From an uncultured bacterium (GTDB lineage: Bacteria > Bacillota > Clostridia > Lachnospirales > Lachnospiraceae): a stretch of DNA of 64,000 nucleotides. The notes under the pieces were generated by a model. The model was given only the letters and a program-made list of their open reading frames with translations. It made no database searches and was not told the DNA's origin. Below are positions 33,607-37,123 of the stretch, piece by piece; within the stretch, counting starts at the first letter, position 1; each line of letters starts with the position of its first letter. The position numbers were made by a program, and so were the translations under genes. The stretch spans positions 1 through 64,000 of the forward strand of contig CANCXX010000018.1 of the NCBI GenBank assembly GCA_947381965.1, given 5' to 3'.

Positions 33607-36600
33607 TCATATTTTCATAAAATCGAATAAACTCATCTGAACTGCTTTTTCTGTCTTCCTTTTCTTTGGTTTTTCCAGGTTTTCCATTTTGGCGTTCTTT
33701 GCCGGAATTTCATTTAAAAAGAGGGAAGCTTCTTGTCCACAAACTAAAATCAGTTCTTCTTTTGCACGGGTCATGCCGACATAACACAGGCGTCGTTCTT
33801 CTTCCAGAGAGATTTCTTTATCTGTATTGTTATACTCCAAAGGAAAACGTCCCTTATCCATTCCATAAAGGAAAACCACCGGAAATTCCAGTCCCTTGGA
33901 ACCATGGAGTGTCATAAGGTTTACCGTATCTGTGACAATTTTTCTGCCGCCATTTCGTCTTATATCCCCGTCTTCTCCAAAGGAAAGGGTGTGGAGAAAG
34001 GCTTCCATAGTAGTATAAAGTACCGACATATTGATTAATTTTTTAATTACATCCTGATTGTTTGAAGAAATATCCTCAAACCATTCCTCAAGAAGTTTTA
34101 TAGGACGGTTTTTGTGAACTTTTTTCTGGTATTTACCGGTTAAATATACAAATTGATTTTCCCATTCACTACCCAAAAGGGAAAAAAGTAATTTCTGACA
34201 AAGTTCCTTTGCAGGTTTTTCCTGGGGATACAGTATATGACGAAAAAAATATAATGCGGTCCTTACTTCCCGCTCTGTCAGAAAATTCTCCCGTCCGGCC
34301 ACCTGATAGGGAATGCCTTCCTGTTTCAAGCATTTTTCAAGTATTGCAGCCTGTCTGTGCGTCCGGTAAAGTACGGCAATATCTGAAAATCCCCGGACAG
34401 GGCGTTCCTTGTCCGTTTTATTATCTTCTGTGTCCAGCATATCGATTCCGCCAATCTGCCGGTTAATTTCTTTGGCTACGAAGATTGCCTCATGCCATTC
34501 GTCTTCCAATGGAACAATACGTATGGGAAATCCCTCTTTTTTCAAGGTTTCCATCCTGCGTTCCTCTCCCTTATTATGAGAGATTACGCCAAGGGCGGCT
34601 TGCAGAATATCTGATGTGGAACGGTAATTTTCTTTTAGACGGATGGTAATGGGATTTGGATAATCTTTGGATAACTGGTGGAAGATGTCTGGATTACAGC
34701 CACGAAAACCATAGATGGACTGGTCCGGATCACCAATTACAAAAAGTTCCTTGCCGCCCCGTCTCCATTCCTTCACCAGTTGGTATTGAAGAGGATTAAT
34801 ATCCTGAAATTCATCAATTAAAAGGTAAGAGAAAGGCTTTCTTTCTAAAGCATTTTCCGGGATGTCTTTCAATATATTTATTGTTTCTAAAAGTAAATCG
34901 TCATAATCAAGCGCTCCGGATTTTTGTAATAGGTTTTGATAAAAATCATATAATTGTCTGTCTTTTTCATCAACTACAGATAATCCATTTTTGACTTTTG
35001 ACAAATCCTGCAGAAATCTGTTGGGGGATTCTTTCCTTTTAAATTCCAAAAGAGCTGTCTGCGCCAGTTCCATCTGAAGCCCTGTATCTGCCACCACAAA
35101 AGACAGTCCGGTTTCTTTCAGAAAATGGCTGCAGATGGCATGAAAAGTACCAATCTGGACAAATGATGGCAGAGCCTTGCTGAACATACGACTCTTCATC
35201 TCCTCTGCAGCTTTGCTGGTAAAGGTTACCGCTGTGATTTCTTCCTGAGAAATTTTGCGTACTTCAAGAAGAAACTGTAGTCTGGCTATCAGAGTTTTGG
35301 TTTTCCCTGTGCCTGGTCCGGCAATAACTGCTATTGTAGCTCCAATCTGTTCTGCAGCTTTTTTTTGTTGGTCATTCATATCATAAATAGGTAGAGCACT
35401 TTGTATATTCTTTGTAATTTGTTTGCGGATTTTTGTTTTATTTTCTATAATTTCACTTTGGGAATTTTTGCATTTTTGCTTATGATTCATATTTTGAATC
35501 TCTGATGCTGTAAAAAGAGAAATTTGGCCTTCAAGACTGCTGATATCTTCCGGTGTCAAAAGGCTGATTTTTCCATACTCTCCATCAAAGCCCGGTGTTC
35601 GTTCTACCTGTCCTTTACGGAGTTTATTAATTCCTTCTGCAATAAGAGAGCCTGCATTTCTTCGGATGTCTTCAATGGGTATATTTCTTAGAATAGTAAA
35701 TTCGGGACCCAGAGTTTCTGTCATATGCTCATATTGCTCCATGGCCTTCTTTCCTGTGGGGGAGATTCCTGTAGAAGCTCCGATTACTTCTAAAAGGGGT
35801 ACCAAACTTTCAAAGGGACGGCCTTTAGGCAAAATAAATCCTTCTTTTCGGTCCGCAAGCTGTTCTATACGGTTTAGCACGCCAATGGTAATTTTTTTGC
35901 CGCATACCGGGCAGATATTTCCATATCCGGAGGTTTGGGATGGACTGATACATAATCTGCATTTTCTGTGTCCGTCAAAATGGTATTTTCCTTCCTCCGG
36001 GAAAAATTCAATGGTGCCAGTTAGTCCTTTTCCTTTCTGAATAGCTTCAGACAGTCCTGTATAAGATAACTCTATATCAAATAAGTTGGCTTCTCTTCCA
36101 AGTTTTGCAGGTGAATGGGCATCAGAATTTGAGATTAGAAAAAATTGGTCCAGTGCGCTTACCCGCCAGTTCATGGGGGGATCAGAAGAAAGCCCTGTTT
36201 CCAGTGCATGGATATAGGGTGTCAGATCTTCAAAGCAGTCTTCAATTTTGTCAAAACCGGAAAAAGCGCCGAATAAAGAAAAATGCGGTGTCCAAATATG
36301 GGCAGGAATAAAAATTCCCTCTGGGGATACCTGCAGCATGGTTTCCAGCAAATCACGACAGGAAATTCCCAGAATGGGACGTCCGTCAGAATGGATGTTT
36401 CCAATTAGTTCCAGTTGCCTTGACAGTGTATCTGCCGCTTCCAGCCCTGGAAGGATCAGAAGGCTGTGTACTTTCCGTACCCGTTCTCCTTTTTTATAGA
36501 TAGAGCTGATTTCTCCAGTCACTACAAAACGAGGATGATGACCGGAGGCTCCCGGAAGCCGGTATTCTTTTTTCAACACATATAATCCGTCTTCCGCCGG

Positions 36601-36768
36601 TTCTAACTTTTCTGATAGTTCCGCACGCCATGCAGGATGGGTAAAATCTCCGGTACCTACAATATCAATTCCCTTTTTTCCTGCCCAGAAATCCAGATAT
36701 TCCGGCGTGCAGTCTTTACTGGTTGCACGGGAATATCTGGAATGAATATGCAAATCTCCTATGTACAT
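33607..36768 (-). CDS. Endonuclease Q (PHP) - UvrD-like helicase fusion
   Basis: 1053 residues. Residues about 1-300 are a PHP phosphoesterase with GDLHIHSRYSRATS, GTGDFTHP and SNSDAHSPAKLG, then a zinc finger (CRLC...CPVCGKK, about 297-320), the layout of endonuclease Q, which nicks DNA 5' to uracil, hypoxanthine and abasic sites. The C-terminal half is a superfamily 1A helicase: AGPGTGKT, LLIDEFQDINPLQY, GDPDQSIYGFRG, LKENYRST, LMTLHGSKGLEFPVV and CYVGMTRAKEEL. The start ATG at 36768 follows AAGAGG; a longer reading from 36837 runs into the mobile element and is not credible. The role in repair of deaminated DNA is inferred. Confidence 0.88.
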   Translation of the reverse strand: MYIGDLHIHSRYSRATSKDCTPEYLDFWAGKKGIDIVGTGDFTHPAWRAELSEKLEPAEDGLYVLKKEYRLPGASGHHPRFVVTGEISSIYKKGERVRKVHSLLILPGLEAADTLSRQLELIGNIHSDGRPILGISCRDLLETMLQVSPEGIFIPAHIWTPHFSLFGAFSGFDKIEDCFEDLTPYIHALETGLSSDPPMNWRVSALDQFFLISNSDAHSPAKLGREANLFDIELSYTGLSEAIQKGKGLTGTIEFFPEEGKYHFDGHRKCRLCISPSQTSGYGNICPVCGKKITIGVLNRIEQLADRKEGFILPKGRPFESLVPLLEVIGASTGISPTGKKAMEQYEHMTETLGPEFTILRNIPIEDIRRNAGSLIAEGINKLRKGQVERTPGFDGEYGKISLLTPEDISSLEGQISLFTASEIQNMNHKQKCKNSQSEIIENKTKIRKQITKNIQSALPIYDMNDQQKKAAEQIGATIAVIAGPGTGKTKTLIARLQFLLEVRKISQEEITAVTFTSKAAEEMKSRMFSKALPSFVQIGTFHAICSHFLKETGLSFVVADTGLQMELAQTALLEFKRKESPNRFLQDLSKVKNGLSVVDEKDRQLYDFYQNLLQKSGALDYDDLLLETINILKDIPENALERKPFSYLLIDEFQDINPLQYQLVKEWRRGGKELFVIGDPDQSIYGFRGCNPDIFHQLSKDYPNPITIRLKENYRSTSDILQAALGVISHNKGEERRMETLKKEGFPIRIVPLEDEWHEAIFVAKEINRQIGGIDMLDTEDNKTDKERPVRGFSDIAVLYRTHRQAAILEKCLKQEGIPYQVAGRENFLTEREVRTALYFFRHILYPQEKPAKELCQKLLFSLLGSEWENQFVYLTGKYQKKVHKNRPIKLLEEWFEDISSNNQDVIKKLINMSVLYTTMEAFLHTLSFGEDGDIRRNGGRKIVTDTVNLMTLHGSKGLEFPVVFLYGMDKGRFPLEYNNTDKEISLEEERRLCYVGMTRAKEELILVCGQEASLFLNEIPAKNAKMENLEKPKKRKTEKAVQMSLFDFMKI

Positions 36769-36784
36769 TTTATACCTCTTTATC

Positions 36785-36794
36785 TTCTGTATAT
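36785..36794 (+). repeat. Target-site duplication, left
   Basis: TTCTGTATAT, repeated exactly at 37010-37019, bounding the palindromic element. Confidence 0.75.
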
Positions 36795-37009
36795 TAGGTA
36801 ATTGCGAAACTCGTAAACTTGCTGAATATTCTGACAATATATTCTGCGAAAAGCCTTATGCACCATGGAATCAAGACCATAGAAGGCAGGAGGGACGCTC
36901 CCCGACTGTCTTCTGTCCTGCTGGGCTTGATGGAATGCCCGGTGCAACAGGATTTAAGTGGAATATATTGTCAGAATATTTCCACAACTTCAAGTTTCGC
37001 ATTTACCTA
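36795..37009. mobile_element. 215-bp palindromic MITE-like element
   Basis: A non-coding element with inverted ends: left TAGGTAATTGCGAAACT (36795-36811), right AGTTTCGCATTTACCTA, one mismatch. An inner exact 20-base inverted pair AATATTCTGACAATATATTC lies at 36825-36844 on the left, with its complement at 36961-36980. The whole element folds as one imperfect palindrome with arms of about 105 bases. It is flanked by 10-bp direct repeats TTCTGTATAT. No transposase is encoded. It lies five bases upstream of the Shine-Dalgarno region of the EndoQ-UvrD gene. A transposon-derived MITE moved in trans is the best reading. Confidence 0.78.
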
Positions 37010-37019
37010 TTCTGTATAT
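37010..37019 (+). repeat. Target-site duplication, right
   Basis: TTCTGTATAT, identical to 36785-36794 on the other side of the palindromic element. Confidence 0.75.
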
Positions 37020-37123
37020 ATTAATTTACCTGATTGTTATTTCAAGTATATCTGATTTTAAAGGTTGATACAATGTTTTTACAGGCAATATACAGAAATC
37101 AATTTCCAAAGCATTCAAAACAA

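Follow-up and report, generated by a model that had tools for sequence, protein, structure and literature searches.

An inserted element upstream of a DNA repair gene

The window analysed here is a 64,000-nt stretch of DNA from a 4.3 Mb genome assembled in 92 contigs (contamination given as 7.3%). On its minus strand lies a gene encoding a TIGR00375 (EndoQ-like) domain and a UvrD-type helicase in one protein, and a 215-bp element is positioned 5' of this gene. The features of the region are as follows.

33607-36768, minus strand: host gene, TIGR00375 (EndoQ-like) domain and UvrD helicase; ATG at 36768-36766
36775-36778, minus strand: Shine-Dalgarno core GAGG, the inferred target motif (from the sequence and the target rule of the family)
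36779-36784, minus strand: constant 6-nt spacer GATAAA between duplication and core (read from the sequence)
36785-36794, no strand: target duplication, gene-side copy TTCTGTATAT (exact repeat)
36795-37009, no strand: MITE, 215 bp (from flanking repeats, fold and copies in the same genome)
36795-36811, plus strand: left terminal repeat TAGGTAATTGCGAAACT, the gene-facing end (first 16-19 bp match IS right ends)
36825-36844, plus strand: inner arm of the hairpin, 20 bases, AATATTCTGACAATATATTC, exact reverse complement of 36961-36980
36961-36980, minus strand: inner arm of the hairpin, 20 bases, exact reverse complement of 36825-36844
36993-37009, minus strand: right terminal repeat TAGGTAAATGCGAAACT, which differs from the left repeat at one position
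37010-37019, no strand: target duplication, far copy TTCTGTATAT (exact repeat)
37018-37045, minus strand: possible native promoter TTGAAA-16-TAATAT, weak, not above shuffles (2 found, 2.3 expected)

The target duplication is exact and 10 bp long, with TTCTGTATAT on both sides of the element, whose ends are inverted with one mismatch in 17. The direct repeats, inverted ends and exact 20-base inverted pair that the first-pass annotation had listed for 36785-37019 were all found in the sequence. Folded as a single strand with DNA parameters, the element reaches -54.5 kcal/mol, compared to -21.3 kcal/mol (sd 3.4) for shuffled versions (z -9.8; none of 200 shuffles equally stable), which bears out the long imperfect hairpin described in that annotation. 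The element lacks a transposase gene: the sole listed ORF crossing it (87 aa, 36761-37024) begins and stops outside. A terminator scan of the region returned no terminator-like site, and a promoter scan gave two promoter-like sites, both outside the element, with 2.3 expected from shuffles. The possible native promoter of the host gene is now on the far side of the MITE. The element had been placed 5 bases from the ribosome binding region; the closeness is correct, the distance is not, as 6 nt separate the duplication from the GAGG core (36778-36775).

Given the strong hairpin in the leader, the element might not be mobile but a regulatory structure, in RNA or DNA, that belongs permanently to the repair gene. 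An Rfam search of 36700-37100 yielded only a chance match (15.1 bits for a gathering score of 48). Orthologues of the host gene, searched with its first 223 residues, were identified in 8 of 36 congeners, and the MITE is missing from the fetched locus in all 8; the upstream regions of these genes have diverged and align too poorly for a single target copy to be read. In its own genome, the element occurs in at least 40 full-length copies with 94-100% identity (40 of 92 candidates scored). The terminal 17-mer, with up to two mismatches, has 129 matches versus 1 for the control; matches to the two ends number 67 (left) and 57 (right), and the control patterns gave none. The first-pass annotation, which had advised a search for further copies, had reserved the case of a fixed structure for a sequence that is unique and conserved at this locus: the element has many copies and is absent at the 8 orthologous loci, findings that refute such a structure and leave it a negligible probability. 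Its claim of a mobile MITE with target duplication is confirmed by the many copies with different duplicated targets.

Thirteen contig ends of this genome (G000) fall 50-55 bp inside a MITE end (e.g., L066, L067, L069, L072-L081). The MITE itself therefore fragments the assembly, and the number of elements is approximate. Several of these contig ends can be paired through their target duplication. Another repeat, GAGCGTGTTTGAAAA..., recurs beside MITE copies (flanks of L013, L067, L075, L110 and L113).

A list of 35 proteins encoded behind a MITE was compiled. Of 20 that were scanned, 18 have a Pfam match; Mfd-like, PurB, ProC, TrkA, NeuB and ABC-F proteins are among these 18. These are ordinary housekeeping genes, so such placement is tolerated. 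The DNA repair neighbour singled out initially, whose domains are as described, is thus incidental: copies of the MITE likewise precede genes encoding Mfd-like, PurB, ProC and TrkA proteins, among others.

A related insertion sequence

The search for transposases in the same genome covered one Pfam family, DDE_Tnp_1, and produced six matches. The terminal repeat of the MITE closes one of them, located where contig C52 begins; within the fetched stretches, no other match has this repeat as a terminus of the element it belongs to (L062 shows the repeat through an adjacent MITE). No copy of this transposase seen in the assembly is whole: C52 has a C-terminal part, truncated by the contig end, and the copy in C56 has a stop. 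The MITE shares its first 15 bp with the insertion sequence (IS) end on contig C52, an incomplete copy in the assembly. Both MITE ends begin as the IS right end does, and the similarity between MITE and IS amounts to 16-19 terminal bp. The idea that the MITE interior descends from the IS was rejected, there being no similarity past these terminal bases.

Whole relatives of the IS, approximately 1.75 kb long, are present in congeners. A collection of 84,980 species contains 196 relatives, the best 80 of which were used here. Sampling of the bacterial family gave matches to the group in 43 of 397 genomes (own genome counted), and relatives are also found in 5 viral contigs and in 4 plasmid records; a search of phage records gave no match. 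Left ends are mostly TAGGCGTTTGCGAAACGCC and right ends mostly TAGGTAATTGCGAAAC. An IS with the same terminal repeat and a 10-bp duplication had been suggested as something to look for: relatives exist, with duplications that vary from 9 to 13 bp instead of being fixed at 10. Nor is the 10-bp duplication diagnostic of a transposase family, as had been surmised, because duplication length ranges from 9 to 14 bp for the MITE and from 9 to 13 bp for the related IS.

DUF772 scores over the Pfam cut-off in all three full-length transposases scanned (L086, L186, L201); the DDE_Tnp_1 match is above cut-off in some transposases and below it in others. The closest curated model is NF033551 (IS1182), with E-values from 1e-10 to 5e-23 and scores of 40.5, 68.3, 53.9, 81.6 and 68.1 bits for five proteins (cut-off, 270). 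We take the DUF772 N-terminal domain to be a defining feature of the IS1182 family. The NF033551 scores are far below the cut-off; the transposase is kept out of this family and designated IS1182-like. In an alignment of 24 rows (10 rows of the first list left out), residues D147, D288, Y420, R423, E427 and K434 are invariant in all 24. The D, D, E triad is thus present, with the Y-(2)-R-(3)-E-(6)-K spacing of the YREK motif of DDE transposases of the IS4 superfamily. Searching solved structures with the transposase sequence returned nothing meaningful. A fold search with a model of the protein (pLDDT 72.5) gave the Tn5 transposase as best match, a weak one, and none with E < 0.001.

Insertions lie at a fixed distance from a purine core

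Target sites were compared in two sets. Among IS copies with both ends, 44 of 66 have a recognised duplication (9-13 bp; the other 22 were excluded), as do 37 of 47 MITE copies (9-14 bp; 10 excluded). The duplication is followed, at a distance of exactly 6 nt, by the start of an RAGG core (AAGG or GAGG) in 40 of the 44 IS sites, for 0.44 expected, and in 31 of the 37 MITE sites, for 0.65 expected (P = 2e-75 and 6e-49, respectively, from a binomial that ignores kinship between copies). The exact spacing is missed by 4 IS and 6 MITE sites. As a control, RAGG was found at +6 for 56 of 3612 random positions upstream of 28 genes of the own genome.

The core is generally on one side. In the IS set, 38 sites have it on the left only, one on the right only and one on both sides; the corresponding figures for the MITE are 23, 5 and 3. 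One-sided sites thus have the left end toward the core in 38 of 39 (IS) and 23 of 28 (MITE) cases. The distance from element to core climbs one to one with the length of the duplication (slope 0.99, r 0.98 for the IS; slope 1.12, r 0.95 for the MITE). Hence, variation in duplication length (9-14 bp) shifts only the edge far from the core.

Outside the discovery set, the +6 rule holds in 13 of 15 IS sites, a number that includes L085 and L087, already inspected before the rule, and leaves out eight more end pairs without recognised duplication. Of the two exceptions, one is L213 and the other the second IS of the L217 tandem. In a single-contig genome (G378), all four IS copies conform. Scanning outward from 68 MITE left ends, we found 66 starts of a motif resembling a ribosome binding site at 10-19 nt, where one copy can count repeatedly; the other 10-nt bins up to 420 hold 1-9. 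Outward of 60 right ends there were 14 such starts, versus 0-5 in the other bins. The IS target consensus reads N4-GAAAGGAG, and the target profile contains no palindrome. MITE-like elements of congeners (five end pairs, none with a recognised duplication) enter no count; AAGG begins 15-17 nt beyond the end in the three G016 elements and 11 nt beyond it in L044, and none was seen in L053. Altogether, closeness to a ribosome binding site, which the first-pass annotation had brought up just as something that could alter transcription of the repair gene, is the rule for the whole MITE/IS group and the principal result here.

Core type, kinship and the nature of the signal

The motif at the target is more specific than a ribosome binding site. 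GAAAGGAG is present in 23 of 40 IS targets; among 82 ribosome binding sites of genes nearby, called crudely from the first ATG, 5 have it. The MITE of the own genome has GAGG in 23 of 31 sites. When AAGG and GAGG (each label being the RAGG met first between 14 and 23 nt outward of the left end, whether or not at +6) were mapped on the transposase tree (n = 60), six changes of core type sufficed; all 500 shuffles required more (mean 11.2). Core type tracks the tree; a change of protein thus goes along with a change of target core. Over 325 aa, the own C52 transposase has 95% identity to L186, and it groups with L186 and L188 with support of 100/100. Both relatives use GAGG. The link between C52 and GAGG depends on these two close relatives, and wider clades are mixed.

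These data bear on how the MITE is mobilized. As the assembly has C52 in incomplete form, with a right end that agrees with the MITE over just those first 15 bp, a transposase outside the C52-like IS group might be considered as the mover. We give this a low probability: C52, alone of the six DDE_Tnp_1 matches, carries the terminal repeat at its own end in the fetched stretches, and MITE and IS have the 6-nt rule in common, as the MITE and the nearest IS relatives have the GAGG core. A transposase of the C52 type, encoded in the same genome, likely moves the window MITE, judging from these shared sequences.

Start codons provide a further point of comparison. By a crude test, 25 of 40 IS sites and 25 of 31 MITE sites with a +6 core are followed by a start codon and an ORF, while 15 of 40 and 6 of 31 lack a start codon with a 50-aa ORF. 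The predominance of sites in front of start codons is what one would see if the element were guided by components of translation or transcription (the 30S subunit, an RNA polymerase, an R-loop) instead of a DNA motif. However, several cores lack a following start codon (L186, L188, L173, L176, L190), the choice of bases exceeds the needs of a ribosome binding site, and core type follows transposase kinship, all of which makes a machinery-guided process improbable. Cores without a start codon fit readout of the DNA and weaken the wording "homes to gene starts".

The pattern might also arise from AT-biased insertion only, with selection leaving the survivors between promoter and ribosome binding site. 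The duplications are indeed AT-rich (78% and 81%, versus 61% at the equivalent place before other AAAGGAG motifs). Moreover, sites inside ORFs, spurious ORFs counted, are rarer than for background motifs: 6 of 40 IS sites versus 58 of 90 AAAGGAG occurrences, and 7 of 31 MITE sites versus 757 of 926 RAGG occurrences in the window. Yet selection cannot set a spacing of exactly 6 nt on one side of the duplication and leave the other side variable, cannot favour GAAAGGAG among ribosome binding sites, and cannot make the core type follow the transposase tree. As a sole explanation it is thus very improbable, even though the target pattern probably owes something to selection and to AT preference.

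Other features of the insertion sequences

L217 and L140 each show a head-to-tail pair of IS next to a single target. In the L217 pair, the second IS has a 14-bp duplication without a +6 core. A 2220-bp arrangement in L219 (898-3117, the same place as L139) has an outer and an inner left end. The outer one obeys the rule, with an 11-bp duplication and AAGGAG at +6, and the inner one, which has no duplication, is perhaps a second left end within the element.

A conserved CTCCT(C) is found some 60-75 nt inside IS left ends (e.g., L122, L147, L157, L173), upstream of the transposase gene's extended -10. It can pair with this gene's own Shine-Dalgarno AGGAG, and both are present in 66 of 72 left ends. 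The four bases beside the two motifs covary, with 23 distinct pairs and a mean of 3.43 of 4 paired (2000 shuffles: mean 2.72, maximum 3.13). In IS10 and IS50, the transposase start site is hidden in read-through transcripts; by analogy, the CTCCT(C) pairing may hide the start site here. The ribosome binding site of the transposase gene, AAAGGAG (L122, L186 and others), resembles the IS target motif, so the IS contains a sequence that it might itself target.

Discussion

We consider it highly likely, from the sequence comparisons above, that the window MITE is a non-autonomous element moved by a group of IS1182-like DDE transposases that recognise a Shine-Dalgarno-type motif in DNA. DDE chemistry entails 5'-staggered strand transfer. 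Applied to the present sites, the transfer 6 bp from the core would be made by the IS right end, which would become gene-distal, and the gene-facing left end would attack 9-14 bp further on, with some freedom. The motif would seem to be kept by the transposase at a set position relative to one active site. The core read would be mostly GAAAGGAG in the IS set and mostly GAGG for the MITE of the own genome. IS ends differ from each other and IS orientation is nearly fixed (38/39); the looser orientation of the MITE (23/28) fits the resemblance of both its ends to the IS right end. Insertion just upstream of a ribosome binding site would keep the site and the reading frame whole, and a terminator-less 215-bp MITE would therefore be tolerated before many genes. 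The MITE would become part of the 5' leader of the genes behind it; as it has no terminator-like site, a transcript could run through and carry the hairpin in its leader. A more extended proposal, namely that the protein directly reads Shine-Dalgarno DNA with clade-specific purine cores and that MITE hairpin leaders place dozens of genes under possible co-regulation, is speculative and rather unlikely.

IS231, IS4 and other elements of the IS4 superfamily make variable duplications of about 10-13 bp. The present group is like them in its DDE triad with YREK spacing, and its best, if weak, fold match is the Tn5 transposase. We know of no Shine-Dalgarno targeting in IS231, IS4 or other members of this superfamily, and our search of the open-access literature retrieved no IS described as targeting ribosome binding sites. 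The yeast elements Ty3 and Ty1 have a fixed insertion place just upstream of genes, a safe harbour, which they find by following the Pol III machinery. The IS/MITE group resembles them in function only, with no kinship claimed, and the data here favour a DNA motif.

The likeness to the IS1182 family, which includes IS1272, consists of the closest curated model, NF033551, and DUF772; the difference is in the scores, 40-82 bits for a cut-off of 270. Unusual targets are known in the family: IS1272 is described as replacing an inverted repeat, and a palindromic target is known for some IS1182 members without being general in the family (PMC5678879). In the present group the target is no palindrome; an AT-rich stretch of 9-14 bp beside a purine motif is duplicated. 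BOX, RUP and SPRITE of pneumococcus, CE and Nezha are described as short elements with inverted ends, a hairpin, target duplication and the ends of a resident IS (PMC3049150). The window MITE is like these in size, inverted ends, hairpin, duplication and IS-shared ends. The pneumococcal repeats are described as having a better chance of being tolerated on the downstream side of coding sequences than on the upstream side (PMC3049150). Unlike those repeats, as so described, the window MITE sits at an exact place upstream of a ribosome binding site.

The IS group is not rare (43/397 genomes), yet the curated IS1182 model is below cut-off for all five proteins tried. The geometry of one fixed and one floating edge, together with the core differences between clades, makes target recognition by a DDE transposase directly testable, and a MITE placed before many ordinary genes could probe how far leaders change without harm. 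The Shine-Dalgarno sequence is about the only one that many bacterial genes share at their start. If our reading is true, a transposase homing to it would find landing sites before genes everywhere, as a bacterial counterpart of safe-harbour targeting.
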